From a virus: a stretch of 26,173 nucleotides of DNA. A program made the translations under genes and the position numbers. A model generated the notes under the pieces. That model saw only the letters and a program-made list of their open reading frames with translations, was not told the DNA's origin and made no database searches. Shown here piece by piece: positions 3,148-21,943 of the stretch. Position 1 is the stretch's first letter. Each line of letters begins with the position of its first letter. The stretch lies in the IMG/VR virus record IMGVR_UViG_3300017986_000116, positions 1-26,173 of that record; one strand, written 5' to 3'.

Positions 3148-4227
3148 ATGAGTCTATTAGATAAAATGCTAAAAGCTGGTTCAGTCAAAGGGTCGACTGT
3201 TCTCAGTAAAAGTTCGTTCTTTAACGAAAAAGACCCAATTCAAACAGAACTACCTATCGTAAATATCGCATTCTGCGGTTCTTTGAAAGGTGGTTTACTT
3301 CCTGGTCTCACGGTTGTAGCCGGTGAATCTAAAAGTTTCAAAACATTATTGGGACTTTATTGTATGAAAGCATACCTTCAAAAATATCCAGAAGGTGTTG
3401 CAATCTTATATGATTCAGAATACGGTATTACGCCTGAATATTTGGAAAGCTATAATATTGATACTAATCGTGTTATTCACGTTCCTATTGAAGACGTTGA
3501 ACAATTAAAGTTTGATGCTACTAAAAGGTTAAACGAAATTGAAAAGGGCGATAAAGTATTCATCATGATTGACTCAGTAGGTAACCTCGCTTCTCGTAAA
3601 GAAGTTGAAGATGCTGAAAATGAAAAGTCAGTTGCTGACATGTCACGTGCTAAACAGCTTAAATCTTTATTCCGTATCGTTACACCTAAGCTCACTGGAA
3701 AGGATATTCCAATGATTGCTGTTAACCATACCTATAAGGAAATTGGATTGTTTCCAAAGAACGTGGTGTCTGGTGGTACCGGTATTTACTATTCGGCTAA
3801 CCAAATCTTTATTATATCTAAAGCTCAAGAAAAGCAAGGTACTGAACTACAAGGGTTTAAGTTTACCATTAATATTGAGAAATCAAGATATGTTAAAGAA
3901 AAATCTAAGTTACCATTCACAGTCTTATATGACACAGGTATCCAAAAATATTCAAGTCTATTTGACTTAGCTCTTGAATCTGGTCACTTGACGAAAGCAA
4001 ATCAAGGCTGGTACAATTTGGTAAATATGGATACAGGTGAGATTATTGAACCAAAACGTAGACTCAAAGATATTGAAGCTGATGAAGCATTCTTCAAAGG
4101 TCTTATTGATGATAAGCGTTTCAATGATTTTGTTGAGAAGAAATTTAAACTCACTATGATTGATAGTGTAAGCGAGGAAGTAGAAGATGATAGAGAAGAC
4201 GATATTATCGAATCTGATTCTGAATGA
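3148..4227 (+). CDS. uvsX: UvsX RecA-like recombinase
   Basis: UvsX forms filaments on ssDNA and catalyses strand invasion for recombination-dependent replication and repair. The 359-residue product (T4: 391) has the UvsX-type Walker A GESKSFKT (59-66), a Walker B strand VFIMIDS (137-143) followed by GNLASRKE, and MIAVNHTYKEIG with VVSGGTGIYYSA (the DNA-binding loop 2 region). The C-terminus is acidic. ATG 3148 is preferred over GTG 3136 because GGAG sits 6 bases upstream. The gene overlaps gp41 by 41 bases, and T4 gene 40, which lies between them in T4, is absent. Confidence 0.95.
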   Translation: MSLLDKMLKAGSVKGSTVLSKSSFFNEKDPIQTELPIVNIAFCGSLKGGLLPGLTVVAGESKSFKTLLGLYCMKAYLQKYPEGVAILYDSEYGITPEYLESYNIDTNRVIHVPIEDVEQLKFDATKRLNEIEKGDKVFIMIDSVGNLASRKEVEDAENEKSVADMSRAKQLKSLFRIVTPKLTGKDIPMIAVNHTYKEIGLFPKNVVSGGTGIYYSANQIFIISKAQEKQGTELQGFKFTINIEKSRYVKEKSKLPFTVLYDTGIQKYSSLFDLALESGHLTKANQGWYNLVNMDTGEIIEPKRRLKDIEADEAFFKGLIDDKRFNDFVEKKFKLTMIDSVSEEVEDDREDDIIESDSE

Positions 4228-5620
4228 GGATTATAGCCGAAAGGTTTTTCCTTATCTAAAAGAAGATTACTTTGAGGATATTGCTCTTCGTAAAGTCTTT
4301 TCGACTGTCTCTGAATACGTAGACAAATACAAAGAGCCTCCTTCAGTTGAGGCTCTGAGAATTGCTGTTGATAATCGTAAAGATTTAAACGAAGATAATT
4401 ACAATCAAGTAAATGAACTCATTAATACGTTGAGTATTGATGTCGATACTAATGTACAATATCTCATTGATGAAACTGAAAAGTTTTGCCAAGACAAAGA
4501 TTTATATAACGCAATTCGTAAATCAATTAACATACTCGATGGTGAGTCTAGTATAGGCAAAGGTGAAATACCTAAACTCCTATCTGACTCATTGGGTATT
4601 TCTTTCGACACTAGTGTTGGTCACGACTTCTTAAATGACTTTGAAGATAGATATGAACACTATCACAAGAAAGAAGAACGTATTCCATTTGATATCGATA
4701 TCTTTAATAAAATTACTAAAGGTGGTTTACCTCGTAAATCAATGACTGTCTTATTGGCAACAACGGGTGGTGGTAAATCATTATTGAAATGCCACATGGC
4801 TGCTAATCATTTAATGTATGGAAAGAATGTTCTGTATATTACAATGGAAATGGCAGAAGAAGAAATTGGTCGTAGGATTGATGCCAACATTATGGATATT
4901 ACTATTGACCAAGTTCAAGAAATCCCAAGAGATGTTTATGGTAAACGTATGGCCAGGTATAAAACTAAAACGCCTGGTAAACTCGTTATTAAAGAATATC
5001 CTACTGGTTCAGTACACTCTGGTCATTTCAGACATTTACTTAATGAACTCAGCCTCAAAAAGAACTTTCAACCTGATGTAATCTTCCTTGATTACTTAAA
5101 TATATGTGCATCATCTAGAGTAAGAGGTGCTGCAGCTGCGAATAGTTATACACTCGTAAAATCTATTGCAGAAGAAGTTCGTGGGTTGGCAATGGAATAC
5201 AACTGCGCCGTTGTAACATCCTCTCAGTTCAATAGGGACGGTTATGGAAATTCTGATGTTGACTTGACTAACACTTCTGAATCTATGGGTATTACTCATA
5301 CTGCTGATGCCATCTTCGCAATCGTGACATCTGAACAACTTGACGACCTTGGTCAAATTATGATTAAGCAACTTAAGAATCGTTGGGGTGACATAGGTTA
5401 TTATAGAAGATTCCTCGTTGGTATTGACAGAGCCAAAATGAAGATTTACGAATTGGAAGAAAGTGCTCAAAGAAATATTAATGTTGATGATAGTTCCGGT
5501 GGTAGCTCTGGAAAAAAGAAGATAGTTGATGATGACGGACCTATGTTCGATAAAACAGATATAGGTAGAAGAATGAGAGGTACTCGTAAAAGCGTATTTT
5601 CAGATGTAACGCTTACATAA
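4187..5620 (+). CDS. 41: Replicative DNA helicase, DnaB family (gp41-like)
   Basis: gp41 is the hexameric 5'-3' fork helicase that also stimulates primase gp61 and is loaded by gp59. The 477-residue product (T4: 475) has an N-terminal DnaB-type domain beginning MIEKTILSNLILNEDYSRKV, close to the T4 start. The RecA-like motor has Walker A ATTGGGKSL (191-199), MEMAEEEIGRR just after it, Walker B VIFLDYL (298-304), and the TSSQFNR and GITHTADAI regions late in the domain. The C-terminal tail is Ser/Gly/Lys/Asp-rich. GAGGAAG upstream supports ATG 4187 within the end of uvsX. It is the last gene of the replication block. Confidence 0.95.
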   Translation: MIEKTILSNLILNEDYSRKVFPYLKEDYFEDIALRKVFSTVSEYVDKYKEPPSVEALRIAVDNRKDLNEDNYNQVNELINTLSIDVDTNVQYLIDETEKFCQDKDLYNAIRKSINILDGESSIGKGEIPKLLSDSLGISFDTSVGHDFLNDFEDRYEHYHKKEERIPFDIDIFNKITKGGLPRKSMTVLLATTGGGKSLLKCHMAANHLMYGKNVLYITMEMAEEEIGRRIDANIMDITIDQVQEIPRDVYGKRMARYKTKTPGKLVIKEYPTGSVHSGHFRHLLNELSLKKNFQPDVIFLDYLNICASSRVRGAAAANSYTLVKSIAEEVRGLAMEYNCAVVTSSQFNRDGYGNSDVDLTNTSESMGITHTADAIFAIVTSEQLDDLGQIMIKQLKNRWGDIGYYRRFLVGIDRAKMKIYELEESAQRNINVDDSSGGSSGKKKIVDDDGPMFDKTDIGRRMRGTRKSVFSDVTLT

Positions 5621-5670: not shown

Positions 5671-7056
5671 ATGAAAAACTTTAGTGACTTTAGGTCAGAA
5701 AATTCGAAAGAAAAAACAGTAAGTGCTCCAGTAAATGAGAGCACTTTTGCTGTTTCTAAACCTCAAAGATTTAGCGAGAACGTAAGAAGTTTCGAGGAAA
5801 TTAACCTAGAATTACAAGAAATTCGCTTTCTTAAAAAGATGGGTGATAACATTGTTCGTAAGCTTAAAGCAACATGGACAGCGTTAAAAAGAGGTATCGC
5901 AATGCTCTTTAATCGTGAGGTTAAACGAGCTCCTCTATTTAAAGAAGTCGAAATCAATATTCCCGCTCAAGTCAAAGAAGATATTCTATCTCAACATGAT
6001 AATGTTCTTCTTGAAGGTGGACTCGAAGCCATTAAAGGAAACTATAACGAAGCATTAGTATGTCAATTCCTCTTCAATCATAGAGGTGAACAGGTTAATA
6101 TATCTAAAGATTACGAAAAGTATAGATTACCAATTAACCAAACAGTTCAAAAATGGGATAAAGACTTAAGAGCCTTTAATTCTAAACAGTACAATAAGAA
6201 TATCGCCATTATTAAGAAAGGTTCTCTTGATATGGCGAACTTTCTTATTTCAAATGCTGTTGCTCAAAAAGCTACTATCATAGGAGCTTACCTCGATAAT
6301 CTCGCATTCCAAGATGGAATCGATTTCAAAGCAGACATTCGTGTTGCTATCATGAAAGAAGGTAAAGAAATCCTTGATGGTTATTCTTTAAAATTATATG
6401 GAAAGAAAACTGTAGGTCTTGCAAATACAACCGCAAAAGCTTTATGCGGACACTTAGGTGGAGATAAGTATGCAGCTAAATTTGACCAAAAGGCAAAAAC
6501 AGACAGAGTACTTATTGATTTAATTCAAAAATCTTCTAACTTAGATAAAATTAAACAAGACCACAAAGATTTATTAAAAGCTAAAACTCCAGAAAAACAA
6601 CAAGCAGTACGTGATAAGATAAAAAGATTACGCGGTTTAACTGATGCTCAAATTGATAAACTTGACCAAACAAAATTAGAAGCCGCAAGAGGAGAAGCAC
6701 GTAAACCTATCAACCCTCGAGTTGCAGAACTCGTATATCAAACAATTAAAGACCTCGAAGGTACTGAACAACTCGGTGAACGTATCTTAGATATTATGGG
6801 CTTTAATGATAAAGAAACAAAGATGTTGATGGCAATTACGACTGCTAAAAAATCTGAAATTATTGCTAAACATCCAGATTTAGATTTATCTGATATTAAA
6901 ATAGACCCACCTGCAGGACGAGTTACAATTAATATTGTAGGACCTACAGGTAAAAATATTGTTACCTTTGGTGTTAAAGAAGGTGAAAAGAAAGCAGTAT
7001 CAGGTTCAGTTAGTTTTGCGGGATTAGACCCAGAAGATTTTGACGAGTATGTATAA
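5671..7056 (+). CDS. Unknown late protein with capsid-targeting-like N-terminus; possible nuclease-like core
   Basis: The 461-residue product starts MKNFSDFRSEN, resembling the short tag of T4 internal head proteins. Residues about 50-105 are basic and helical. A central region (about 205-265) reads DFKADIRVAIMKEG, then GYSLKLYGKKTVGLANTT. This D...(x)LK arrangement recalls degenerate PD-(D/E)XK-type folds, but the acidic residue expected before LK is Ser, so I treat a nuclease assignment as weak. The C-terminal third is Lys-rich helices ending in a beta-rich segment. It is the first gene behind the late promoter at 5623, and its stop overlaps the start of the kinase gene by 8 bases (ATGTATAA). 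No closer family recognised. Confidence 0.7.
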   Translation: MKNFSDFRSENSKEKTVSAPVNESTFAVSKPQRFSENVRSFEEINLELQEIRFLKKMGDNIVRKLKATWTALKRGIAMLFNREVKRAPLFKEVEINIPAQVKEDILSQHDNVLLEGGLEAIKGNYNEALVCQFLFNHRGEQVNISKDYEKYRLPINQTVQKWDKDLRAFNSKQYNKNIAIIKKGSLDMANFLISNAVAQKATIIGAYLDNLAFQDGIDFKADIRVAIMKEGKEILDGYSLKLYGKKTVGLANTTAKALCGHLGGDKYAAKFDQKAKTDRVLIDLIQKSSNLDKIKQDHKDLLKAKTPEKQQAVRDKIKRLRGLTDAQIDKLDQTKLEAARGEARKPINPRVAELVYQTIKDLEGTEQLGERILDIMGFNDKETKMLMAITTAKKSEIIAKHPDLDLSDIKIDPPAGRVTINIVGPTGKNIVTFGVKEGEKKAVSGSVSFAGLDPEDFDEYV

Positions 7057-7759
7057 AAGATTTGAAACATGGAGAGAATCAATTGAAGAGGGTCCTAACG
7101 ACCCAGCAATCTTTAAGGCAATTTTCTTAGCAGGTGGACCAGGTTCAGGTAAATCCTTTATCACTGGTAAATCTTCTATTGTATCACTCGGTTTTAAAAT
7201 GGTCAATTCAGATATTGCATTTGAACGTGCCATGCAGAAAGCTGGTATGGAAATGGACCCTAAGAGTATTTTTAGTACAATGGGTCAAGCAGTAAGAGGA
7301 AAGGCAAAAAGATTAACACAAATTCAAGTAAACTCTTATGTTAAAGGTCGATTAGGTTTAGTTATCGATGGAACAGGTAAGGACTTCGATAAAATAAAAA
7401 ATCAAGCACAAGACTTAAAGAGTATTGGATATGACGTAGCAATGATTTACGTCAACACAGATTTAGAAACTGCATTAGACAGGAATAAAAAGAGAGCACG
7501 TTCTCTACCTGATAAATCAGTAATTGATTATTGGAAACAAGTACAAAATAATATTGGTAAATTTCAAACTTTCTTTAAACAAGAATTTTTAGTCCTTGAC
7601 AATTCAGAAGGAATGGATTATAATAAGACAGGTATGGAAGGTTATAGGTTTGCCACAGCATTTAAAAACAAAGAAATTAAAAATCGTCAAGCAAAAGAAT
7701 GGATTGCGAAAGCGAAAACAAAGGGTTACAAACCTCTGAGGATTAATTTACCAGCATGA
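7049..7759 (+). CDS. P-loop kinase (zeta-toxin / polynucleotide-kinase-like)
   Basis: The 236-residue product has a strong Walker A, AIFLAGGPGSGKS (about 24-36), directly followed by FITGKS and then MVNSDIAFERA, where the Asp after NS fits the acceptor-substrate Asp of zeta/PNK-type small kinases. A later strand LGLVIDGTGKDF and an Arg-rich lid-like helix (DRNKKRARSLP) complete the fold. It probably phosphorylates a nucleic-acid end, nucleotide or sugar; the substrate cannot be read from sequence. The N-terminus MYKRFETWRES is tag-like as in neighbouring late proteins. ATG 7049 is chosen over an upstream TTG. It overlaps its neighbours by 8 and 4 bases, and a perfect sigma70 promoter lies in its 3' part. 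Confidence 0.85.
   Translation: MYKRFETWRESIEEGPNDPAIFKAIFLAGGPGSGKSFITGKSSIVSLGFKMVNSDIAFERAMQKAGMEMDPKSIFSTMGQAVRGKAKRLTQIQVNSYVKGRLGLVIDGTGKDFDKIKNQAQDLKSIGYDVAMIYVNTDLETALDRNKKRARSLPDKSVIDYWKQVQNNIGKFQTFFKQEFLVLDNSEGMDYNKTGMEGYRFATAFKNKEIKNRQAKEWIAKAKTKGYKPLRINLPA
7596..7624 (+). promoter_or_regulatory. Perfect-consensus sigma70 promoter inside the kinase gene
   Basis: TTGACA (7596-7601), a 17-base spacer and TATAAT (7619-7624) match consensus exactly, about 130 bases upstream of the ligase-like gene. It lies in coding sequence (VLDNSEGMDYNKT), so selection on the protein could explain it, but a 12-of-12 match with ideal spacing suggests an extra early promoter for 7756-9900. Confidence 0.5.
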
Positions 7760-8991
7760 TAACGTTTAAACAATACTTATCGGAAGCAGCTAAAAATCTT
7801 CACATGACACATTTGGAAGATGCGGTCATTGATGGTGGAGTAGTTGGAACACGTAACGTATTCTCTTATATTAGAGCAATACGTGATATGTTAGCTGGAC
7901 ATACTTCCGCTCCCGTCAGTTTAACTGTAAAATGGGATGGTGCGCCTGCACTCTTTGCTGGGATTGACCCAACTGATGGTAAGTTCTTTGTAGCAAAGAA
8001 AGGAGTCTTTAATAAGAATCCAAAAATTTATAAAACAAATGCAGAAATTGATAATGATATCAAAGGTGACTTGAATGCTAAATTCAAAGTTGCCCTTGCC
8101 GAGTTCTCAAAACTCGGATTACGTGAAGGAGTAATACAAGGTGATTTCTTATATACGAACGACGACCTTAAAACTGAAACTATCGATGGAGAGACGTATA
8201 TTACTTTTCATCCTAACACGATTGTTTACGCGGTACCAAAAGATAGTGACCTTGGAAAAACAATTAATGCCTCAAAAATCGGTGTGGTCTGGCATACAGT
8301 CTACAGAGGAAAAGATTTTGAATCAATGTCAGCAAGTTTTGGAAAGAAGATTGTACCTTATCTCAAAGTCCCAAAATCAGTCTGGGCAGTAGATGCAGTC
8401 TTTGAAGATAAATCAGGTAACGTAACTTTTACTGAAAAAGAAACGACTGATATAACAAAGGTTCTTTCAGATGCCGGTAAAATTTTCAGAAGAATACCAG
8501 CAAAAGTACTCAATGAATTAGGTACTAACACAGAATTAAACGCAAGAGTAAACACTTATATTAATAGTAAGGTAAGAGATGGTGAACGTATTGGTGAACC
8601 AAAATCTTTCCTTATTGGTTTACAAGCATACATTAAAGAATATTATCAGAAACAAGCTGATAAAGTTAAACAACCAACAACAAAGGCTGCTAAGATTAAA
8701 ATTGGTAATGATGTATTGAAATATTTTTCTAAAGCGAATATGAGACATATCGAAGCAATCTTTTCTCTATACAATCTTTTAGTTGATGCAAAACACATGG
8801 TTATCGATAAGCTTAATCATGTTGATGGACTTAAAACATTCCTTAAAACAAAAGATGGATTTGAAGTAACAGGTCAAGAAGGATTTGTTGCTATCGACCA
8901 CCTTGGAAGAAATAGTCTTAAACTCGTTGATAGATTGGAATTCTCAAAAGCAAACTTCTCAACAGAGTATATTAAAGGCTGGGATAAGTAA
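7756..8991 (+). CDS. Ligase-like nucleotidyltransferase-fold protein with capsid-targeting-like N-terminus
   Basis: The 411-residue product carries motifs in the order of covalent nucleotidyltransferases (RNA/DNA ligases, capping enzymes): motif I V-K59-W-D61-G62-A, where K59 would be the adenylated Lys; EGVIQGDFLYT (124-134), like motif III/IIIa; EGFVAI (375-380), like motif IV; and SLKLVDR (387-393), like motif V. A mainly helical insert (about 225-365) separates the early and late motifs, which is unusual. The N-terminus MITFKQYLSEA resembles a T4 head-targeting tag ending in an L-x-E cleavage-like site. I recall this as a conserved uncharacterised phage family (possibly DUF6267). It overlaps the kinase stop by 4 bases, suggesting a kinase-ligase pair. 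Activity is inferred. Confidence 0.72.
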   Translation: MITFKQYLSEAAKNLHMTHLEDAVIDGGVVGTRNVFSYIRAIRDMLAGHTSAPVSLTVKWDGAPALFAGIDPTDGKFFVAKKGVFNKNPKIYKTNAEIDNDIKGDLNAKFKVALAEFSKLGLREGVIQGDFLYTNDDLKTETIDGETYITFHPNTIVYAVPKDSDLGKTINASKIGVVWHTVYRGKDFESMSASFGKKIVPYLKVPKSVWAVDAVFEDKSGNVTFTEKETTDITKVLSDAGKIFRRIPAKVLNELGTNTELNARVNTYINSKVRDGERIGEPKSFLIGLQAYIKEYYQKQADKVKQPTTKAAKIKIGNDVLKYFSKANMRHIEAIFSLYNLLVDAKHMVIDKLNHVDGLKTFLKTKDGFEVTGQEGFVAIDHLGRNSLKLVDRLEFSKANFSTEYIKGWDK

Positions 8992-9900
8992 ATGGCCGCC
9001 CAACAAGGGTTTGCCTATGAACGAGAAGTTGCAAAGACACTCAAAAAATACGATTGGGTAAAACCCACGTACTCACCCGCGGGCGCGGCATCAGACAGAC
9101 CAGATTTAGACATTCTTTTTGAAGGAAAAGAATATGGATGCGAATTAAAACTTGGTTTAGCTTCAGCTGGTTCTCTTGTCATTCATCACTTAGGTATGGG
9201 TAAGTATGCATACGGTGATACTGATGGAGATGAAGAAAAAGAATTTCTAAAAGGCCTAGCAGAAAAAGTTGATATGCTTAGTGTTATAGAACGCAAGTGG
9301 AGAAGGAAAAGCACCTTTACACATCCTAGTGACCAACACTTAAACTATCCTTTATTACAAAAAGATAAGACTGAGGACTGGGCTGCTAAAATGGAAAATG
9401 CTCGAGTGCATTATGGATATGATTTACGTACAAGGTATATTTTAGATAAAGAACAATGCCCAGATATTTACTTTCAAATGCCTTCTGATACGATTTCAAA
9501 GTATTATAATTTAAAGTATACACACTATTTAAATGTTGCAACTCACGGATTTTACCTCTTAGGAATCAGTGACCCAGCTAGAATAAATAGAGATAAGTTC
9601 GGAACAGAAAAGGTTCCTCTTTGGGACGATTGTCATACATGTGTAATGCGTGTTAGAGTACAATCTAAAGGTGTTACTAAAGCGGAACAGGCAGAAAAAA
9701 GATTAGGGTATGTTAAAGCAGGTGCAGGTCAAGGTTATCAATTCACAATGGAATTGCAATTTAAAAACCTAACAGCATCACCATACAATATAGGTCCAAT
9801 ATTTGGTAAAGGACCTACAGTAGACGAATCAAAACTTAAACTACCTAATAGAGAAGAAAAAGTTTTGATTGAAGATACAAAAGAAGAGACAGAAGAATAA
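8992..9900 (+). CDS. PD-(D/E)XK-like nuclease, hypothetical
   Basis: The 302-residue product begins with an arrangement typical of PD-(D/E)XK nucleases: GFAYEREVAKTLKK with E10 in the first helix, then RPDLDILFEG (D38/D40), then YGCELKLG, giving E51-L-K53. The spacing between D and E-x-K (about 10 residues) and the intervening strand fit the fold. The rest is not assigned; it holds several aromatic and Cys residues (CPDIYFQMP; CHTC at about 212-215) and an acidic tail. It starts on the base after the ligase-like stop and ends the operon. Possible roles are host or competing DNA degradation, or trimming ends for the kinase and ligase-like proteins. Confidence 0.68.
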   Translation: MAAQQGFAYEREVAKTLKKYDWVKPTYSPAGAASDRPDLDILFEGKEYGCELKLGLASAGSLVIHHLGMGKYAYGDTDGDEEKEFLKGLAEKVDMLSVIERKWRRKSTFTHPSDQHLNYPLLQKDKTEDWAAKMENARVHYGYDLRTRYILDKEQCPDIYFQMPSDTISKYYNLKYTHYLNVATHGFYLLGISDPARINRDKFGTEKVPLWDDCHTCVMRVRVQSKGVTKAEQAEKRLGYVKAGAGQGYQFTMELQFKNLTASPYNIGPIFGKGPTVDESKLKLPNREEKVLIEDTKEETEE

Positions 9901-10015: not shown

Positions 10016-10582
10016 ATGGGAAAAATAATGGATAGAGGTCACGATGGTGGAAACATCTGGAGATGGCTTACAATCGAAAAATACGTTCGAAAGAATGGGT
10101 GGACAAGAGGAGCAGAACTCGGTGTTTGGTTAGGTGAAACATTTAAACACCTAGTTAAAACATGTCATAATCTTACTCTATATGGAGTTGATTTATATGA
10201 AGCTCAGCCAGGTTATGATGGACCTGAACAATGGACACCAGGTGAAAATGGTCATGCTTGGAATCATGAAGCGTACTATAATGACCTCGTAAGTTTCTGT
10301 AAAGGATACAAAGACAGAGCTTTTATTATTAAAGATTATACGACTGAAGCCGCAAAGCAGATTGAAGATGAAAGTTTAGATTTTGTTTTTATCGATGCTG
10401 ACCATTCTTATAATGGTGTTATGAGAGATGTTGAAGCATGGGCTCCAAAAGTTCGTAAAGGTGGTATGATTATTGGACATGATATTCATTTCCCAACAGT
10501 CAAACAAGCTGTTGAAGAATTATATGGTGAAGGTAATTATATTGTAGAAGATGATTTTTTATGGTTAGTTGAAAAAACATGA
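10016..10582 (+). CDS. Class I SAM-dependent methyltransferase
   Basis: The 188-residue product shows the Rossmann methyltransferase pattern: motif I AELGVWLGETF (33-43), acidic end of strand 2 at YGVDLY (D59), FVFIDADHSYNGVMRD (124-138, motif IV-like and typical of the Methyltransf_24 / class-I small-molecule or sugar methyltransferase group), and GGMIIGHDIHFP (149-160). In that group the target is often a sugar or other small molecule attached to a glycan. AACAGGAGAAAACA precedes ATG 10016. It is the first gene of the island behind the perfect promoter and overlaps the next gene by 4 bases. With two glycosyltransferases and a sulfotransferase downstream, O-methylation of a glycan is a reasonable inference. 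Confidence 0.85.
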   Translation: MGKIMDRGHDGGNIWRWLTIEKYVRKNGWTRGAELGVWLGETFKHLVKTCHNLTLYGVDLYEAQPGYDGPEQWTPGENGHAWNHEAYYNDLVSFCKGYKDRAFIIKDYTTEAAKQIEDESLDFVFIDADHSYNGVMRDVEAWAPKVRKGGMIIGHDIHFPTVKQAVEELYGEGNYIVEDDFLWLVEKT

Positions 10583-11118
10583 CAAAAACAAGAGTGATTA
10601 ATTTCTATGGTGGTCCATCATCTGGTAAGAGTACGGCCGCCGCAGGATTATTTTATAGAATGAAAATGTTGGGATATGAAGTAGAACTCACAGATGAGTT
10701 TGCCAAAGAATGTGTATGGGAAGGAAACATCCCTATGCTTCAAGACCAACTCTGGGTATTAGCTCACCAACATAGAAAAATTTTAAGATTAGCAGGTAAA
10801 GTTGATTATATTATTACAGACAGTCCAGTATTATTGTCTCCTCTATATAGAGAAAAATATTCTGGTCCTTTGTACTCAGATTTAATTGACCGAATTGCTT
10901 TTGAGATTTATGAAAAATATTCTAATATAAATTTTATGCTCACTAGACCAGAAACCTTTGAACAAAATGGTAGAGCACAAGACAAAGAATTAAGTATCCA
11001 AATAGATACAGAAATCATATCTCAATTTAATAGATTAGGTATTTCATACGATGTACTTGGTTCTAATGACCCAGCTGAAGAAGCACTCACACATATTATT
11101 TCACTAATCGCACATTAA
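10579..11118 (+). CDS. P-loop NTPase/kinase (AAA_28 / NadR-kinase-like)
   Basis: The 179-residue product starts with VINFYGGPSSGKST, Walker A GGPSSGKS at 11-18. It continues with YEVELTDEFAKECVWEG, a strand VDYIITDSPVLLSPLY (Walker B-like D-S-P with potential substrate-binding residues), and FMLTRPETFEQNGRAQ with Arg residues that fit a kinase lid. The size and D-S-P motif resemble nucleoside or nicotinamide-riboside kinase-like P-loop proteins (NadR C-terminal type). The substrate is not determined. It lies between the methyltransferase and SHMT with short spacing, so it belongs to the same early metabolic operon. Confidence 0.75.
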   Translation: MTKTRVINFYGGPSSGKSTAAAGLFYRMKMLGYEVELTDEFAKECVWEGNIPMLQDQLWVLAHQHRKILRLAGKVDYIITDSPVLLSPLYREKYSGPLYSDLIDRIAFEIYEKYSNINFMLTRPETFEQNGRAQDKELSIQIDTEIISQFNRLGISYDVLGSNDPAEEALTHIISLIAH

Positions 11119-12273: not shown

Positions 12274-12932
12274 TGGACTGTACCATTGAAAAGAAATTAA
12301 TGCATATCTGGGTTGGACCCAGACCAGCACCTTTGAAGTGGATGTATACTTGGAGAGATAAACATCCTGATTGGGAATATAGTATTTTTACAGATGCTAT
12401 GCTCAGACAAAGAAGATGGTATAACCAACCTTTAATAGAACATTACTATAATGCAAAAGCTTTTTGTGGTGTATCTGATTTAATAAGATATGAATTATTA
12501 TATGAACATGGTGGATTTATTGCTGAAGCTGATATGATTTGTTTAGAGAATACAGATGAGTTATGGCAATCTCCAGAAGACCATGCTTATACATGTTATG
12601 AAAATGAAAAAGGTCGACCAGATTTTGTTCAACCTATTTTCGCATGTAATCCTGGCAATGAGTTTATTAAATTATTAATTGATACGCTTCATACGTTAAA
12701 ACCACACCAATTACACCCACAACCTTTTGTGTCTACAGGGAATGGATTCCTTTCGAAGTTCGTTCCAAGCTTTAAACACAAATTAACAATATTCCCATCG
12801 CACTACTTCATTCCTCAGTTTTATATTAATGGTGCCCAAAGATATGATGGACCAGATAAAATATATGCTGACCACAAATGGGGAAGTACTGGAATGGGAT
12901 TTAATTGTATTGATTATTCACAGGGAGTATAA
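12273..12932 (+). CDS. GT32-like glycosyltransferase
   Basis: The 219-residue product has features of the glycosyltransferase-sugar-binding (DXD) family: MHIWVGPRPAPLKW near the start, then GVSDLIRYELLYEHGGFIAEADM (67-88). SD-x-x-R-Y-x-x-L-x-x-x-GG followed by a metal-binding acidic triplet is the family hallmark. The usual D-x-D is E85-A-D87, a conservative change. It probably transfers a sugar from a nucleotide donor to a glycan acceptor. It starts in the SHMT stop codon and is followed by the sulfotransferase with the same TAATG overlap, implying coordinated translation. Confidence 0.8.
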   Translation: MDCTIEKKLMHIWVGPRPAPLKWMYTWRDKHPDWEYSIFTDAMLRQRRWYNQPLIEHYYNAKAFCGVSDLIRYELLYEHGGFIAEADMICLENTDELWQSPEDHAYTCYENEKGRPDFVQPIFACNPGNEFIKLLIDTLHTLKPHQLHPQPFVSTGNGFLSKFVPSFKHKLTIFPSHYFIPQFYINGAQRYDGPDKIYADHKWGSTGMGFNCIDYSQGV

Positions 12933-14465: not shown

Positions 14466-16871
14466 ATGAGCCAAACATTTCAAGAATTCTTGGATAGTGT
14501 ATCGTCAGCTCAACTCGATGAAGCGACACCAGGAGAAGATAATCCTAAATCGCCTGAAGAGTTGAAAGCAAAACGTCGTGGTAAAAAAGGCGACGAAGAA
14601 CCAGTTGATGGAAAAGTTGATGCAGCACCAGAAACTGATGACACAGATGATATAGACCAAGAAGAACCTAAATCAGAACCTAAGGTAAATCCTGAAGACC
14701 CATTTTCCAGTGAAAGAACACAGGACCAGATGGGTGACATTGATGCAGGAATTGCCGATGCTGCCAAGAAACTTAAAGATGCAGAGAATATTAAAACAAA
14801 TCCTCAATTAAGAAAGATTGGTAAGAAAAAGTTAAATCCTAAAAAGTTCGTAAATACGAAACCTTCCGTAGACGAAGCGCCTCGCAAAGGGGTTGCTGTT
14901 ATATCATTTGGTCGTATGAACCCTGTGACAGTTGGTCATGAAAAATTGGTCAATAAGGTCGTTTCCACTGCCTTATCCAAAGGCGGAACACCACTAATCT
15001 ACTTATCTCAAACTCAGGACTCCAAAAAAAATCCACTCACATACGACCAAAAAATCTTATTCGCTAAACGCGCATTCGGAAATAAAGTGATTGTTAAATC
15101 ACGAGCACGCACCATCATAGAAGTTGCTAAAGAATTACAACGTCAATATAGTGATTTAGTGCTTGTTGTAGGTTCCGACCGTGTAGACGAATTTAGTAGA
15201 ATGCTCAACCAATATAATGGTAGAGACTATACTTTTAATAATATCGAAGTAATCTCAGCTGGGGAAAGAGACCCGGATTCAGAAGGCGTTACGGGAATGT
15301 CTGCGTCCAAGATGAGACAAGCAGCTGCAGATGAAGACTTTACTTCCTTTAAGAAAGGATTACCAACCAAACTCAAAGGTTCTGCAAAAACAGTATATGA
15401 TGCAGTAAGAGTTGGAATGGGACTCCAAGAAACAATGGAAATAGAGTTTGAAGATTTCGATGATGAATTCTTAGATGAAATCTTTATGGACGAAAACCTC
15501 ACTGAAGATTTAATAGGTGAAGCACTAACACGTCAACAAAGACTCAAGCGCAAAATGTTAATGAAGCGTATGAGAAGTAAACTCAGAATGGGAAGAAGAC
15601 GTGCTATGAAGAGGGTTGCAACAGTCGACGTTCTTAAAAGACGTGCTCGTCGTTTAGTATATAGAATGCTTAAGAAGAGATTCTCTAAAGCAGTTAATTA
15701 TGGTGATATGCCATATAGTGCAAGACAGAGAGTTGACGATAGAATTAAAAAGATTCCTAAGAATAGAATTGATATCTTAATGCGTAGGTTCTTACCTAAA
15801 GTGAAAAAGGCAGAACGTGCAAGATTAGCAAGTAAAATGAAAGCGAAATCTAGTCCGTTGAAACCTAAGAAGGTTAAGATTATGAAGGTTGATACTTCCC
15901 CAGCGAAGAAAGGACCAAAGAAACCAAAAGAGTTTAAGAAAGAATCTTTAGACTACGCAGTAATGAACTTCTTATCTGAGAGAGTTAAGAATGGTAAATT
16001 AGACCCGTTATCTCCAATGGGTAAATCAAAACTTACTGGTCGAGAAGTTTCTCAGTATTATAGAGACAACCCTGCTGCAAAAAGAGCAGCACGAGATGAG
16101 AAGACAAAATTAGCGATTGAATTGGCATTAGACCTTGGTGGTAACATGAACTATGCCATTAAAGAAATCGAAAAGATTAAAAGAGGATTATCAAAGCATC
16201 CTGAAGTTCGTAAAGCTTTACAACATGTAAATGAGAGTGCTGAACACTCATATAAAGAATATACATTAGAACAACGCATGAATGAAGGCCCAACATATCA
16301 CACTGGGTTAGCAAAGTCAACAGCTGACAAACGTAAAGCTCAATTTAAGAAACAAGCTAAGATGGACGATGATAATCCTAAAGCATATAAACCCGCACCT
16401 GGTGATGCTACAGCAGAAACAAAACCAAGTCAACACACCAAAAATTTTAAAAAGATGTTTGGTGAAACTAATTACGAAAGAGCAGGTTTGAAAAGACCTC
16501 ACATGTTATTAGCACGTAATGGTTCAGTAGTTGTTGATAAACGTTTTAAAATTAATAAAAAAGCTGAAGAAATAGCAGCAGAACGTAGTGCAAAAATTAA
16601 AGAACTTGAGCAAATAGGGGAAGAACTTGATTTCATCTTTGAAAGCAATCCTAAAAAATCTCTTAAGAAAAAGGCTGAAAAAACTGGAATCCCTTATGGA
16701 ATCCTTAAAAAAGTATTCGATAGAGGTGTTGCTGCATGGAGAACCGGTCACAGACCCGGAACTACTCCTACTCAGTGGGGATTGGCAAGAGTTAATAGTT
16801 TTGCCACCGGGGGTAAAACACAAAAAACAACAGACGCGGATTTGTGGAAACAACATAAAGGTAAGGACTAA
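14466..16871 (+). CDS. Large basic late multi-domain protein with embedded adenylyltransferase-type domain
   Basis: The 801-residue product is modular. Residues 1-20 are tag-like (MSQTFQEFLDS, then QLDEA). Residues 21-140 are acidic and low-complexity. Residues 141-300 form a nucleotidyltransferase (HxGH/NMNAT-PPAT-like) domain: VISFGRMNPVTVGHEKL (145-161; T-V-G-H replaces H-x-G-H), VLVVGSDRVDEF (232-243), and GMSASKMRQA (277-286), equivalent to the I-S-S-T-x-x-R motif. Residues 354-490 are extremely Arg/Lys-rich and may bind DNA. Residues 545-590 form a helical module repeated in the next gene, and 730-797 hold a conserved-looking domain (AAWRTGHRPGTTPTQWGLAR). Similar 'cytidylyltransferase' proteins occur in cyanophages (from memory). 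It may be a processed head polyprotein; the start has TAGGAC upstream. Confidence 0.8.
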   Translation: MSQTFQEFLDSVSSAQLDEATPGEDNPKSPEELKAKRRGKKGDEEPVDGKVDAAPETDDTDDIDQEEPKSEPKVNPEDPFSSERTQDQMGDIDAGIADAAKKLKDAENIKTNPQLRKIGKKKLNPKKFVNTKPSVDEAPRKGVAVISFGRMNPVTVGHEKLVNKVVSTALSKGGTPLIYLSQTQDSKKNPLTYDQKILFAKRAFGNKVIVKSRARTIIEVAKELQRQYSDLVLVVGSDRVDEFSRMLNQYNGRDYTFNNIEVISAGERDPDSEGVTGMSASKMRQAAADEDFTSFKKGLPTKLKGSAKTVYDAVRVGMGLQETMEIEFEDFDDEFLDEIFMDENLTEDLIGEALTRQQRLKRKMLMKRMRSKLRMGRRRAMKRVATVDVLKRRARRLVYRMLKKRFSKAVNYGDMPYSARQRVDDRIKKIPKNRIDILMRRFLPKVKKAERARLASKMKAKSSPLKPKKVKIMKVDTSPAKKGPKKPKEFKKESLDYAVMNFLSERVKNGKLDPLSPMGKSKLTGREVSQYYRDNPAAKRAARDEKTKLAIELALDLGGNMNYAIKEIEKIKRGLSKHPEVRKALQHVNESAEHSYKEYTLEQRMNEGPTYHTGLAKSTADKRKAQFKKQAKMDDDNPKAYKPAPGDATAETKPSQHTKNFKKMFGETNYERAGLKRPHMLLARNGSVVVDKRFKINKKAEEIAAERSAKIKELEQIGEELDFIFESNPKKSLKKKAEKTGIPYGILKKVFDRGVAAWRTGHRPGTTPTQWGLARVNSFATGGKTQKTTDADLWKQHKGKD

Positions 16872-19135
16872 TGAAGAAATTTAAAAATTTATTCGAAGAG
16901 CATGGAGCAGGTTTCTGGGGAACCACTTCAGCAAAAGATAAACTTGCATCAGACACACCTGGTCAAGGTAAAACTGCTGAACAACCATTAAAGAAAAAGA
17001 AAGGTTTATCAGAGATTGCAGCTGACAATACTAATATTAATCTATTAGAAATGACAGTATCATTTAAGTTTGAAACATTACAAGATGCTGCAAAGGCTGA
17101 ACGTAAAGCAATGGCAATGAATCTCGATGCAAAATCTGAAAAAGTTAAAGGTAATAAGATGTGGTTGCTCCACATTTCTGGTAAATTTACAGACATTCAA
17201 AAGTGGCTTAAAAGAACTCAACCTGAAAAGCCAGTAGAAGAAGAATTAAAACCAACAAGTCAAACTAAAACTATAAGACCTAATGAGTATAATATTGATG
17301 GTAAAAAGGTAAGAGTAGTTCCACAAGGTGGAAAATGGAAATGTACTGTTGATGGTAAAGAATTAGGTATCTACAGTTCTGAAAAATCTTGTATGCAAGC
17401 AGCCGCAAGACATATTCGATTAGGTAGTACTGCAAAACAAGACCAAAAAGATAAGATTCAACTCGCAAGAAGTTATGCAAAACCTGGTAGTAGTTTCCAT
17501 AGTAAATACCGCGGTGCTGGTATTGGTGAAGAATTAGAAGAAGGTCATGAAAAATTTCAGTTAGTGGATATGGACGCAGACACAGCAAGAGTCGCAGTTC
17601 AACTCGCTAAGAAAGCTGGGCTACAACCACACAGTAAAAAATCAAGAAGTGGCGGTTTAGATATATCCGTAGAAGGACCTAAGCAAAAGGTATCTAAATT
17701 TATTATGTCTTTACCAGAGTCTAATTTAGATGAAATCTCACAGGATAAACTAAGAAAATATGTGGCGAAGGCAACAAGTGACGCAGGTAAAGCGTCCGGC
17801 GACATGACGAAGGGCAATCCTGACGCTGCCTCAAGGTTAAATAAAAGAATTTCTGGTGTCAATACTGCGCAAGCAAAACTCGATAAGAAAAAAGAAAGAG
17901 ACGATTTCGATAGTCCTATTACATCTAAAGATATTAAAATGGCAATAGGTATTGCTAATGACCCAAGATATAAGCAGGGTAATTATAGTGCAGCTTATCA
18001 AAAAATCTCAAGATTGAAAAAAGGTTTACAAAAACATCCTCGAGTTGCAGATGCTTTAAGACGAGCGAATGAAGAACATCAGTGTGACATCGTAGATGCT
18101 CTTATGGAAGAAGATGGATACTACAGAGGTTCACTATCATCTTATGAGAGAAGATTTGCTAAAACTCCTGAAGGACGTAGAGATGCTTCTGGTGATAGAG
18201 GTAGAGCAATGGAAAAAATCGCAGAGATTAAAGAAAAAATCCAACGCGCTCAAGAACGTGCTAGAAAATTCGAGAAATTAGCTAGTGCAGCACAAGGTAA
18301 TGAAAAGTTCGGTGCTCATACAGGTAATGAATGGAGACAAAAGGCACAAGAGAAAAAGAAAGATATTCAAAAGTATCAAAGACAAATCTCTAATCTCCAA
18401 GCAGGAAGACATATCAATGATGGTATTACTGAAAACTTCGATTTCGACGTATTACCTGAAGCAATGACTGCAGACCAAAAAGCAAAACGTTATTTAATGA
18501 TTAAGAAAGCCGCTGAAAAGAGACAGAAGGCAAGTGCTAAATGGGATGCAAGAGCGAAAAGAGATGCTCAAAAACAAATGAGAGATGCTGGTTTATTTGA
18601 TGAAGACCTTGCTATCGATGAAGAAATAATGGAAGGTGCAGTTGCAGTTTCTACAGTAGAAAAACAAATACGAAGCAATGGTGGAAAAATCATAAGACCA
18701 GAAACTGACGATAAGAAAATTACATTTACATATAATGGTGGTAAGAGAACTGTTCCTGTAGATAGAGATTTTGTTATTGACAGAGAGTATATGAAGTTAC
18801 AAAAAATCTTTGAGGGACTTCGTGGTATGCACTTTGGTTATAGAGATAACAGTAACGATGGAAACCAAGGACCAAGAGTAGTCTCAAAACCAAAACAAGA
18901 ACCAGAACTTGAAAGATTGAAAAAGAAATTAGAATTTCATTATAATCAACAAGCTGTTCACGACGAGGCAGAACGTAAATACAGAAAAGCTGCTTCGGAA
19001 GGAAGGAAAAAAGGTCACTCAGGTGTTGAAGCTAATGAAAGACGTGCTGATGAGCAAGAAGAAATGGCACAGAAGCAAATGATGAAAATCCAAGATATAA
19101 GAGACCAAATAAGAGATTTAAAAGGAAAGAAATAA
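16871..19135 (+). CDS. Large basic late multi-domain protein, probable virion/prohead component
   Basis: The 754-residue protein starts MKKFKNLFEEH, tag-like. Residues about 62-116 and 226-282 look like two small alpha/beta units of similar order (strand, helix KAERKAMAM or ARVAVQLAKKAG, paired strands, helix). Residues 140-183 are a beta-rich unit (IDGKKVRVVPQGGKWKC) followed by a helix. NLDEISQDKLRKYVAKA (285-301) begins a helical module I have seen in other phage proteins. Residues 349-400 match a module in the preceding protein, and 430-510 are charged and coiled-coil-like. Possible maturation sites of the L/I/V-x-E type sit between units (LLEM, NLDEI, LPEAM, IMEGA). It starts in the stop codon of the preceding gene (TAATG). 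Enzymatic function not recognised. Confidence 0.72.
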   Translation: MKKFKNLFEEHGAGFWGTTSAKDKLASDTPGQGKTAEQPLKKKKGLSEIAADNTNINLLEMTVSFKFETLQDAAKAERKAMAMNLDAKSEKVKGNKMWLLHISGKFTDIQKWLKRTQPEKPVEEELKPTSQTKTIRPNEYNIDGKKVRVVPQGGKWKCTVDGKELGIYSSEKSCMQAAARHIRLGSTAKQDQKDKIQLARSYAKPGSSFHSKYRGAGIGEELEEGHEKFQLVDMDADTARVAVQLAKKAGLQPHSKKSRSGGLDISVEGPKQKVSKFIMSLPESNLDEISQDKLRKYVAKATSDAGKASGDMTKGNPDAASRLNKRISGVNTAQAKLDKKKERDDFDSPITSKDIKMAIGIANDPRYKQGNYSAAYQKISRLKKGLQKHPRVADALRRANEEHQCDIVDALMEEDGYYRGSLSSYERRFAKTPEGRRDASGDRGRAMEKIAEIKEKIQRAQERARKFEKLASAAQGNEKFGAHTGNEWRQKAQEKKKDIQKYQRQISNLQAGRHINDGITENFDFDVLPEAMTADQKAKRYLMIKKAAEKRQKASAKWDARAKRDAQKQMRDAGLFDEDLAIDEEIMEGAVAVSTVEKQIRSNGGKIIRPETDDKKITFTYNGGKRTVPVDRDFVIDREYMKLQKIFEGLRGMHFGYRDNSNDGNQGPRVVSKPKQEPELERLKKKLEFHYNQQAVHDEAERKYRKAASEGRKKGHSGVEANERRADEQEEMAQKQMMKIQDIRDQIRDLKGKK

Positions 19136-19807
19136 GTGAAAAGCTTTCTGGAATATCAATACGAAAAGACTTGTTGGGACGGTTATAAACAAGTCGGTAT
19201 GAAAAAGAAAGGGAAGAAAATGGTTCCTAATTGTGTACCAGAAGAAACCCTTGATGAAAAACGTATAGATATTAAGAAGGCAATAAGTAAGATTAAAGGA
19301 TTAACGTCTAAACAGGCTCAGGTTCTTCAAACACTTCCATTGCCAGTATTGAACACTATGATTTCTCAATTACAGACACTGGTTATGGGTGAGGATTTAG
19401 ATGAAGCAACTTTAGCAGCATCAAATTCTGCAATCGTTGCGAGTTTACTTAAATTAATAAGTCGTAAGTTAAATGACGATTTACAAAAAGGTAAACTACA
19501 CGATGTTAATGTGGTTGCTAGTTTAATTAAGAAAAAAGTAGAAACTGATTTTAAACGTAAAGGTCATGCTCGATTAAAGAATGAAGAGAATGAGCTTGAA
19601 GAAAAGAAATCAGAAACTTGGGAAGCAGGTTATAAAAGACGAGTTGTAAAAACAACCAAACCAGAACATAAAGAGAAAGGTTATAATTGGAGAATTAAGG
19701 GCAAAGAAAAAGCTCACCTCACAATTAAGTTATATAAAGATAAACCTTCACAAGAAGAATTTAACAAACAAATGAAACGTGTTGCAGGACACGAATTCGG
19801 AGGATAG
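19136..19807 (+). CDS. Late protein with Cys-flanked CWDGYKQVG...C motif
   Basis: The 223-residue product starts at GTG 19136, immediately after the preceding stop, giving MKSFLEYQYEK, another tag-like N-terminus. Residues 13-33 (C-W-D-G-Y-K-Q-V-G-M then a K/G stretch, ending M-V-P-N-C) form a short two-Cys motif that I recall recurring in marine T4-like phage proteins. After an LDE junction comes a helical region (about 44-100: AISKIKGLTSKQAQVLQTL), then LDEATLAAS and another helical domain, then a basic C-terminus. The ATG of the next gene follows its stop closely. Role unknown; a virion or head-core role is inferred from context. Confidence 0.7.
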   Translation: MKSFLEYQYEKTCWDGYKQVGMKKKGKKMVPNCVPEETLDEKRIDIKKAISKIKGLTSKQAQVLQTLPLPVLNTMISQLQTLVMGEDLDEATLAASNSAIVASLLKLISRKLNDDLQKGKLHDVNVVASLIKKKVETDFKRKGHARLKNEENELEEKKSETWEAGYKRRVVKTTKPEHKEKGYNWRIKGKEKAHLTIKLYKDKPSQEEFNKQMKRVAGHEFGG

Positions 19808-19814
19808 AACGGAA

Positions 19815-21563
19815 ATGAAAAGTTTCAAACAACATACTGAAGGCTCATTCTATGGCCGAGACGACTTAGTCAAGAAATGGTCTACACCTAAAAAGGATAG
19901 ACACCTGTATATTAAGTTAGCTAAAGACGATGCAAGTGGACATCATCGTGCTTCAATGAAGCGTAAAGGTAATGAGAAGAAGATTGCTGACCTTAAGAGT
20001 CAAGGATATAAAGAAGTACCATTTGAATCAAAAGAAGAATTACAACAATGTATCGATGAAAGTTTAAAATCAGATATCGCTAGGATTGCCTCTGAATTTC
20101 CTGAGCGTTCAACTGTTACATACAAAGGGAAGAAAGCAACGGTACTAGGAAATGGAAAAGACTATGTTAAAATTGGTATCGGTGATGAAACTCACGAAGT
20201 AAGTCCTAATGTATTAAAAAAGAATACAAATGAATTAGAAAAAGATACAGTTGAAGTAGAAGTTGATGATATTTCTGTTGGTAAAAAGAAAAAGAAACCA
20301 GCTGGAGTTAAAGCAGATGAGCCTTTAAAAGGTTATGCTTATAACGAAAAGATTAAAGAATCCGCAGAGAGTATCGCTCGATTCGCTACTTACGATTGGT
20401 ATGGTTTACCAAAGATTAAAGGTTTACAAGAATATAACGAAGGTTCTTGTGTTAAAGAAATGCAAAAACTTCATGCATCAGGTTGTGCTAAACATGAAAT
20501 GTATGAAAAGATAAAAGAAAAATATGGTTGTAGTGAAGCTAAATTCAACGAACTATATGCACAATATTGTGGTACAAATGAAGAAACAATTAATGAAGCA
20601 GCAATGTCAAAACCACAATCCATTGAAGATTACGCAAGAGCAGTAGGTGTTAATAAGCAAGAACAACAATGGATTATTGATAACGAAGATTCATTTAAAA
20701 AGTATCATAACAATAGTGCGTTGAAGAAGTCTTGGTTATCTCTATCATACCCAGTCTATGACGGTGATTATTACTTTGCTTTTATTGGAGACAGTGAAAG
20801 AGAAAATGCAAAGCTCAATGCTGAAGCAAACCGCGAATTAAGAAAATATGCAAAGAGTAAATTAGACAACGAAGCTATTTACAACGAAATGGAAAAGATG
20901 TTCAGCATGACAAGATATTCTAATGTTGGTGCTGGTGATACAATGACTCGTGAAGAATTGTGGAGAGCAATTCAACATATTCGTAAAGATTATAGAGAAG
21001 AAGCACAAATCGAAGGTTGGGAAGAACTTGAAGAAAAAGCTTTATTAGGTAGAATGAAAACTATGGCACGTAACTTACTCGATAAAATGAGAAAACGCGC
21101 TAAGAAAGTTTCCCTACCTGAAAGCTTAGAAGAAAAGCTAACAGACAAATATGGTAACGCCAAATTAAGTGATGCCGACAAGGATAAAGTTGGTAAACTG
21201 AGACAGAAAATTAAAGACCATGAAATTTTAGCTGACAGATTAAGAGACGAAATTAGTCAGATTAAAAAGGCTGCTGGCGTTGATGAAAGTGTAGATTTAG
21301 AAGAAAATTTCAGCCTCACAGATTCTAATCTTAAGTGTGTATTCGCATCACCTGAGTTTAAAGTATGTGTTAGCGGAAATGATGTTGCTATCGTAATGGA
21401 TAGAAAAGTATCAAAGGGTGGAGCAATGACTGCATCTGGTAATTCTATTCCAAAAAATTTAGAAGGTGCTCCAATTACAGGTATGGCTGATGTTCTTCAC
21501 ATGGACAAAAAAGTATTTAAGAACGTCTTAGCATCTATGAAGAGAGCGAGCATTAAAGTCTAA
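19815..21563 (+). CDS. Large multi-domain late protein with four-cysteine helical module
   Basis: The start is taken at ATG 19815 (582 residues) because GGAGG lies upstream and the product then begins MKSFKQHTEGS, in line with neighbouring late proteins. An in-frame GTG 36 bases earlier is less likely. Units: a small basic unit (20-75), a beta-rich SH3-like unit (97-134: STVTYKGKKATVLGNGKDYVKIG), a helical module with four Cys (C212, C224, C239, C252), a central domain (264-430), a helical hairpin (435-486) and a beta-rich C-terminal unit (500-582). Units are separated by acidic E-S/E-A junctions (CIDES, TINEA, LPES, VDES) that could be protease sites. Function unknown; probable head or core polyprotein. 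Confidence 0.7.
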   Translation: MKSFKQHTEGSFYGRDDLVKKWSTPKKDRHLYIKLAKDDASGHHRASMKRKGNEKKIADLKSQGYKEVPFESKEELQQCIDESLKSDIARIASEFPERSTVTYKGKKATVLGNGKDYVKIGIGDETHEVSPNVLKKNTNELEKDTVEVEVDDISVGKKKKKPAGVKADEPLKGYAYNEKIKESAESIARFATYDWYGLPKIKGLQEYNEGSCVKEMQKLHASGCAKHEMYEKIKEKYGCSEAKFNELYAQYCGTNEETINEAAMSKPQSIEDYARAVGVNKQEQQWIIDNEDSFKKYHNNSALKKSWLSLSYPVYDGDYYFAFIGDSERENAKLNAEANRELRKYAKSKLDNEAIYNEMEKMFSMTRYSNVGAGDTMTREELWRAIQHIRKDYREEAQIEGWEELEEKALLGRMKTMARNLLDKMRKRAKKVSLPESLEEKLTDKYGNAKLSDADKDKVGKLRQKIKDHEILADRLRDEISQIKKAAGVDESVDLEENFSLTDSNLKCVFASPEFKVCVSGNDVAIVMDRKVSKGGAMTASGNSIPKNLEGAPITGMADVLHMDKKVFKNVLASMKRASIKV

Positions 21564-21943
21564 TGAAAGGATTTCATGATTTTTTAAATGAATCAAACTT
21601 TGGTTTGTATGAAGGAGTTACAGTTCCTTTAGAACAACCAATGATTGAGTTTGAGGAAGAAAAAGAACCAGAACTAAACAAACCGAAGCGAAGTTCTGGT
21701 GATAAAAAGTATGTTGTATATGTACGCAATCCTCAAACAGGTAATGTTAAGAAGATTCAATTCGGTGACGAGAAAGGTGGGTTGACCTCTAAAATTAATG
21801 ATAGAGACGCTGCAAGGTCATTCGCTGCTCGACATAATTGTGATACAAAAACAGATAAATTAAGTCCTGGTTATTGGGCATGTAGATTGCCTAAATACGC
21901 AAAATCATTAGGACTTAAAGGTGGCGGCTCATATTTTTGGTAA
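21563..21943 (+). CDS. Small late protein with conserved YVVYVRNPxTGNVKKIxFGD module
   Basis: The 126-residue product starts MKGFHDFLNES (tag-like, ending in L-N-E). After an acidic linker, residues about 48-126 form a compact module: KYVVYVRNPQTGNVKKIQFGD, GGL, an R-rich helix DRDAARSFAARHNC, then LSPGYWACRLPKYAKSLG and a C-terminal aromatic GGGSYFW. I recall this module (two Cys, G-Y-W-x-C-R) as widespread in marine phages and some large viruses under a DUF name (possibly DUF5872); its biochemical role is unknown. It starts in the stop codon of the preceding gene (TAATG). Confidence 0.75.
   Translation: MKGFHDFLNESNFGLYEGVTVPLEQPMIEFEEEKEPELNKPKRSSGDKKYVVYVRNPQTGNVKKIQFGDEKGGLTSKINDRDAARSFAARHNCDTKTDKLSPGYWACRLPKYAKSLGLKGGGSYFW

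Follow-up and report, generated by a model that had tools for sequence, protein, structure and literature searches.

The window analysed here is a 26-kb viral fragment (IMG/VR record IMGVR_UViG_3300017986_000116, 26,173 nucleotides) in which a gene for a P-loop kinase overlaps one for a 411-residue protein of the Pfam family DUF6267. The source is a marine T4-like phage with hundreds of relatives encoding DUF6267, and UvsX, the gp41 helicase and the gp59 loader were recognised among the window genes. An earlier reading of the letters alone (the original prediction) had singled out the two genes as a kinase with a GGPGSGKS Walker A motif, overlapping by 4 bases a protein with ligase motifs. Both the motif and the overlap were confirmed: the kinase open reading frame (ORF) runs from an ATG at 7049 to a TGA at 7757-7759, and the DUF6267 ATG lies at 7756, so that stop and start share a single ATGA. 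The kinase start in turn sits 8 bases within the gene upstream (Table 1).

Table 1. Features of the window discussed in the text (CT, cytidylyltransferase; PNK, polynucleotide kinase)
Feature	Position	Strand	Remark
gp41-type replicative helicase	4187..5620	+	conserved landmark upstream of DUF6267
Tagged protein, function unknown, N-terminus MKNFSDFRSE	5671..7056	+	directly upstream of the kinase
PNK-like P-loop kinase, 236 aa, Pfam Zeta_toxin/AAA_33	7049..7759	+	
Walker A of the kinase, GGPGSGKS (K35)	7133..7156	+	
ATGA overlap, kinase stop and DUF6267 start	7756..7759	+	
DUF6267 (PF19782), predicted ligase-like nucleotidyltransferase, 411 aa	7756..8991	+	
DUF6267 tag MITFKQYLSE, T4 IPIII-type capsid-targeting sequence	7756..7785	+	predicted prohead-protease site after E10
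DUF6267 motif I, K59-W-D61-G62	7930..7941	+	K59, predicted adenylylated lysine
DUF6267 motif III-like Q128-G129-D130	8137..8145	+	predicted strand 126-134
DUF6267 predicted helical insert, residues 227-353	8434..8814	+	separates motifs III/IIIa and IV; shorter in the ~300-aa forms of cyanophages
DUF6267 motif IV, E375-G-F-V-A-I380	8878..8895	+	
DUF6267 motif V lysine K389 (KLVDR)	8920..8922	+	
NMNAT-like CT, weak tag MSQTFQEFLDS	14466..16871	+	constant DUF6267 neighbour
Tag-bearing protein, MKKFKNLFEE	16871..19135		
Tag-bearing protein, VKSFLEYQYE	19136..19807		
Tag-bearing protein, MKSFKQHTEG	19815..21563		
Tag-bearing protein, MKGFHDFLNE	21563..21943		

Conserved motifs and predicted fold of DUF6267

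The window protein matches DUF6267 with an E-value of 2.2e-104 (350 bits against a cut-off of 27) and also belongs to phrog_455, a group of unknown function. By tblastn we found the family in 414 phage records, mostly of cyanophages but including HTVC008M, Melnitz and Stenotrophomonas phage DLP6; no paper in the literature searched, which was confined to open-licence papers, mentions it or proposes a function for it. Conservation was read from an alignment of 101 relatives (33-80% identical) and from a second of 18 members that spans the family, with identity down to 25%, and includes the ~300-residue forms that cyanophages also encode and that lack much of the middle part.

Invariant in the 101 relatives are K59, D61, G62, A63, P64, Q128, G129, D130, P153, N154, T155, Y158, E375, G376, K389 and R393, while K59, D61, G62, K82, Q128, D130, P153, Y158, E375, G376, V378, K389 and R393 are invariant across the 18 members. 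Motif I (KxDG, with its invariant lysine) is thus present at both depths, as are motif IV (E375-G376) and motif V (K389), and motif III carries D130 rather than a glutamate. The ordered K-W-D-G, EGFVAI and K-L-V motifs of the original prediction stand where it placed them (K59-W-D61-G62, EGFVAI at 375-380 and K389) and hold at the depth of the family. When residues were shuffled among conserved columns, the ordered KxDG...EG...K pattern arose in 3 to 13 of 400,000 shuffles, a statistic that is post hoc because the pattern was picked after it had been seen. Polar, catalytic-type residues nonetheless stay invariant at 25% identity and in the right order and, judged on the alignments, the motifs exceed chance. 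A further nearly invariant stretch, KN-x-H-M-x-H-L-E-D (residues 13-22, window 7792-7821; N14, H16 and D22), lies directly after the N-terminal tag described below, and forms a polar site ahead of motif I for which none of the explanations proposed here accounts.

An AlphaFold2 model built on the 101-row alignment (predicted local distance difference test score, pLDDT, 88; predicted template-modelling score, pTM, 0.82) leaves residues 1-16 disordered, sets K59 at the end of strand 55-59 and Q128-D130 within strand 126-134, makes residues 227-353 helical and carries motif IV on strand 376-380 and motif V on 387-390, the last predicted element being helix 393-401. The original prediction had suggested a fold search against ligases. 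Compared with the PDB using Foldseek, the model gave no significant match (ligases at E of at least 1.3, top probability 0.15); the best probabilities among the matches listed (0.09-0.15) belonged mainly to NAD+ DNA ligase domains and human DNA ligase 1, with TbREL1 and an archaeal RNA ligase also among the best 50. Among viral models (BFVD), the first named match past the DUF6267 relatives was an Atu_ph07 "RNA ligase" (E 5.7e-3, probability 0.95), and more RNA and DNA ligases followed it. The call of a ligase-motif protein is thus upheld by ordered, invariant motifs and by a fold signal leaning towards ligase adenylation domains, but not by any significant sequence link to ligases. A comparison of the DUF6267 profile with those of T4 Rnl1, Rnl2 and DNA ligase, which gave no match, is uninformative, since profiles this shallow also missed the established pairs Rnl2/Rnl1 and Rnl2/DNA ligase.

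Two candidate intermediates were set aside. The Atu_ph07 protein AUZ94878, considered as a bridge between DUF6267 and Rnl, is a separate RNA_ligase-like protein (sub-threshold Pfam match, E 0.002) without the DUF6267 framework, and a distant PA5oct homologue suggested by Foldseek was not found by profile search. We read the model as that of a putative divergent member of the covalent nucleotidyltransferase fold, which is a reading and no proof, and think it probable that DUF6267 is a covalent nucleotidyltransferase.

An N-terminal tag of the T4 internal-protein type

The N-termini of DUF6267 proteins vary freely save for the pattern M-x-x-F-x-x-Y/F-L/I-x-E, after which the conserved core (KNTHM) begins at once. 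In 66 distinct tags, position 4 is F or L, position 7 Y or F, position 8 L or I and position 10 E. The ten-residue capsid-targeting sequence of T4 IPIII, to which the propeptide of IPII is identical, uses residues 4 and 7 for targeting and 8 and 10 for processing (PMC9026906). The positions fixed in DUF6267 are exactly these determinants, and the window protein has F4, Y7, L8 and E10.

A weight matrix was built from the 66 tags only, with the window excluded, and scanned over whole genomes. In T4, just two proteins scored at least 5, namely IPIII and the adjacent protein, whose identical tag agrees with the description of IPII; a core-only matrix returned the same two and one other ORF of 225 at 8 or above. 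In the 170-kb relative G001, the kinase (13.8) and DUF6267 (20.4) were the only two proteins above 7, alongside two marginal matches, while the scan of DLP6 returned DUF6267 and one marginal match, and that of Melnitz DUF6267 and three others; the Melnitz kinase starts MKTFAELQEG. Within the window, the DUF6267 tag scores 22.4, higher than any internal 10-mer of the window proteins. Distinct starts scoring at least 8 made up 108 of 116 for DUF6267 versus 11 of 20 for the main kinase group, in which many orthologues begin MxxFxxYLxE followed by GVNDPxIFKA. The rate among other ORFs of DUF6267 loci (135/1456 at the same threshold) can serve only as a ceiling for the background, since these loci hold other tagged genes; the whole-genome scans are the cleaner background. 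Both N-termini had been described as tag-like, which is strongly true of DUF6267 but only weakly so of the window kinase (MYKRFETWRESIEEG), though its orthologues are tagged.

The tags are unstructured in the AlphaFold2 models of both proteins, and a gp21-type prohead protease is encoded in 16 of 18 related or control genomes. We consider it very likely that tagged DUF6267 is packaged. Five more window proteins begin with a tag or a close variant (scores 6.0-10.5; Table 1), most of them without a Pfam match, and the window may therefore encode a larger set of packaged proteins.

Published virion proteomes bear on the same point. Mass spectrometry identified the CT (T4-GC190), encoded by the gene after DUF6267 in cyanophages, among the virion proteins of S-SM1 (PMC3037559), S-CREM2 (PMC10665884) and S-SZBM1 (PMC9146016), and an NMNAT compared with the cyanophage CT among those of S-SCSM1 (PMC9602691). 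Two of the detected CTs, S-CREM2 gp154 (MKNFSSFLTE before A) and S-SZBM1_140 (MRFRQFIIE before A), score high with the matrix trained on DUF6267. The DUF6267 protein of S-SZBM1 (SSZBM1_141), adjacent to the tagged CT, begins MAKNTHLEH without a tag and is missing from the virion list, a contrast that fits tag-dependent packaging, absence from such a list being a weak sign. The tag is not the sole route into the virion, since other detected proteins of those cyanophages lack it, and the S-CREM2 authors caution that enzymes of this kind could be contaminants (PMC10665884). Our search for virion proteomes found none of a phage with a tagged DUF6267.

The kinase and the neighbours of DUF6267

The AlphaFold2 model of the kinase (pLDDT 91) has as its top five PDB matches the kinase of Clostridium thermocellum Pnkp (CthPnkp; E 2.5e-7 to 1e-6); Pnkp1 from the Pnkp1-Rnl-Hen1 complex ranks 15th, and zeta toxins follow at ranks 26-27. 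A profile match to T4 Pnk (E 9.7e-8) covers the kinase domain from end to end, lid RNxxR included, and aligns the invariant K35, D55, D107 and R149 with T4 Pnk K15, D35, D85 and R126 (Walker A, general-base Asp, second Asp and lid Arg). Fold and profile thus agree with the earlier assignment to the PNK type. The best Pfam family is Zeta_toxin (E 2.8e-10, 40.4 bits against a cut-off of 22.3), followed by AAA_33; across 51 kinase members, Zeta_toxin was matched by all 51, AAA_33/Zeta by 50-51 and AAA_28 by one, and the best NCBIfam model, PSTK, fell far under its cut-off. The Zeta_toxin match is a superfamily-level one. The window kinase lacks a phosphatase domain. We slightly favour polynucleotide ends as its substrate.

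Neighbours were counted within 8 kb of DUF6267 in three groups of phages, at loci flanked by 4.5 kb or more on each side. The CT was found at 58/65, 11/11 and 6/6 loci and gp41 at 58/65, 11/11 and 6/6, the gp41 neighbourhood being kept even where DUF6267 is untagged; the kinase was found at 11/65, 8/11 and 0/6, placed upstream and overlapping, downstream and overlapping, or at a distance. CT and kinase are fused in eight ORFs, at a junction of E followed by a GVNDP-like sequence, and DUF6267 is fused to CT in S-PM2. These counts and fusions indicate that DUF6267, CT and kinase belong together, with the kinase as an optional third member. The kinase-ligase pairing that had been proposed is therefore recurrent but optional, the constant partner being CT. 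An obligate kinase-DUF6267 pair is ruled out by kinase-less loci and by kinase-bearing phages without a detectable DUF6267.

CT itself is weakly NMNAT-like; that of the window carries DUF5824 at its C-terminus (E 1.9e-16) and far exceeds cyanophage CTs in length. The window also encodes an AAA_28 (NadR-type) P-loop kinase at 10579-11118 (E 3.4e-11), which could serve NAD+ salvage together with the CT. The gene after DUF6267 (8992-9900) has a PD-(D/E)xK-like pattern (PDLDILFEGKEYGCELK), may encode a nuclease and is seldom kept beside DUF6267 (3/65 loci). Between DUF6267 and CT (11128-13594), serine hydroxymethyltransferase-like, glycosyltransferase-like and sulfotransferase-like genes were recognised by eye in a row. 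Agrobacterium phage Atu_ph07 has, near the kinase polyprotein, many consecutive genes of similar size (L392:7319-14593); all three that were tested match phrog_12810/11975, and they resemble a duplicated family.

HTVC008M, Melnitz, S-PM2 and P-HM2 gave no match to Pfam DNA_ligase_A_M, RNA_ligase or NAD ligase. On this three-family search, DUF6267 was the sole ligase candidate to be found in some phages; others have it in addition to a conventional ligase. A role as straight substitute for conventional ligases is ruled out, both coexisting in several genomes.

A proposed packaged module, its rivals and known systems

We propose that a ligase-like DUF6267, a PNK-type 5'-kinase and CT form a head-packaged, injected module for healing and sealing nucleic-acid ends, and give this reading as a whole a probability of about 0.42. 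In T4-like phages infecting heterotrophs, the DUF6267 and kinase products would usually be made with a T4 IPIII-type tag and drawn into the prohead core, where the gp21-type protease would clip them after the Glu of the tag. They would then be ejected along with the phage DNA, the NMNAT-like CT being part of the same packaged module. Once inside the next host, and before phage gene expression, 5'-OH ends would be phosphorylated by the kinase, and 5'-phosphate ends adenylylated (via K59) and sealed by DUF6267. That no 3'-phosphatase was identified argues against complete repair of anticodon-nuclease breaks, leaving DNA or RNA breaks with 3'-OH and 5'-OH or 5'-P ends as possible substrates. A broader proposal, which we hold more tentatively, is that DUF6267 is a new covalent nucleotidyltransferase family and the ligase that has been overlooked in marine T4-like phages, and that lineages infecting heterotrophs gained the tag and inject it with a PNK-type kinase and CT.

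Several observations weigh against the packaged repair module. Searches of PDB, Pfam and NCBIfam with DUF6267 sequences, singly and as profiles, returned no ligase; motif III shows a D in place of the E usual in ligases; and just 22 residues follow K389, so that the OB fold and motif VI of DNA ligases are absent. In the kinase, the acceptor-phosphate Arg of T4 Pnk (R38) is not conserved, the window protein having F58 there and E59 as the conserved neighbour, and no 3'-phosphatase or cyclic phosphodiesterase was identified here. Most DUF6267 loci lack the kinase, which also occurs in phages with no detectable DUF6267, and some DUF6267 phages (DLP6, G001, G002 and others) also have a conventional ligase. 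As for packaging, the tag of the window kinase is degenerate, with a poor matrix match, and DUF6267 members of cyanophages and most pelagiphages carry none.

The main rival, so ranked because CT is NMNAT-like and the CT-kinase fusions follow NadR domain order, would have the injected proteins serve NAD+ metabolism against host defences, and not end repair: CT would make NAD+ from nicotinamide mononucleotide (NMN), a NadR-like nucleoside-type kinase would supply the NMN and DUF6267 would use or spend the nucleotide. In NadR the NMNAT domain precedes the kinase, as in the fusions; CT is the constant partner of DUF6267, the window has an AAA_28 kinase gene, and work on cyanophage virions has already suggested NAD+ synthesis as the role of CT (PMC10665884, PMC9602691). 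We nevertheless judge this unlikely, as 50-51 of the 51 kinase members match AAA_33/Zeta and one matches AAA_28, Foldseek places polynucleotide kinases first with no NadR or riboside kinase among the best 50, and the ordered ligase motifs are left without a role. The packaged kinase might instead be of zeta-toxin or another small-substrate type, acting on host metabolites and tied to DUF6267 by co-packaging alone. Its Pfam assignment, a best NCBIfam model of PSTK (far below cut-off) and the injected zeta-like kinases known among polyvalent proteins (PMC5512222) speak for this; zeta folds ranking after CthPnkp, a T4 Pnk profile match over the entire domain with its lid, and recurrence beside DUF6267 in three arrangements make it rather improbable.

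About equally improbable is a DUF6267 without sealing activity that adenylylates or caps another target, either a protein or the 5' end of a nucleic acid. The short stretch beyond motif V and absent OB domain, a relation to ligases invisible by sequence and the S-PM2 fusion to a second nucleotidyltransferase are consistent with such an enzyme, whereas the proteins that it weakly resembles in fold are ligases (NAD+ DNA ligase, RNA ligases and LIG1) and a kinase partner suits end joining. Finally, the motifs might be coincidental and DUF6267 a structural or DNA-binding head or replication protein, which would accord with the lack of significant ligase homology and with its retention next to the gp41 helicase even when untagged; the invariance of its catalytic-type residues, in order, makes this very unlikely.

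If the packaged repair module is real, these phages inject an end-repair kit before expressing their own genes, a likely ligase can be named for phages in which the three ligase families tried find none, and a sequence signature becomes available with which to predict proteins riding inside T4-like heads. The combination of kinase and ligase (T4, Pnkp) and the capsid-targeting tags of T4 internal proteins are already known; new, against the literature searched, are the tag on DUF6267 and its kinase and the ligase-like role for DUF6267.

The nearest parallel is T4 Pnk (PseT) with Rnl1/Rnl2, in which a phage PNK-type kinase is likewise joined by a covalent lysine nucleotidyltransferase, as predicted for DUF6267. 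T4 Pnk has a 3'-phosphatase domain that the window kinase lacks, however, and DUF6267, which has a helical insert, is without detectable sequence kinship to Rnl1 or Rnl2. To our knowledge, the T4 Pnk and Rnl enzymes are not tagged head proteins. Bacterial Pnkp and Pnkp1-Rnl-Hen1 supply the closest kinase fold and its rank-15 match, and the ligases of these RNA repair systems also bear an insertion domain (PMC4411300), but the window kinase comes without their phosphatase domain and without an identified phosphatase or Hen1 gene. T4 IPII and IPIII share the ten-residue tag and its four determinants, with the gp21-type protease in related genomes; in the DUF6267 family, by contrast, the tag sits on enzymes, and the DUF6267 core starts right after the cleavage Glu. 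The cyanophage virion CT, neighbour or fusion partner of DUF6267 (T4-GC71) and tagged in two mass-spectrometry-detected cases, is neither ligase nor kinase, and others have proposed NAD+ synthesis for it. The polyvalent phage proteins, in the passages drawn on (PMC5512222), have a tag that is not of T4 type and RNA ligases mentioned only as separate phage enzymes; like the CT-kinase fusions, they are multi-enzyme proteins thought to enter the cell with the DNA.

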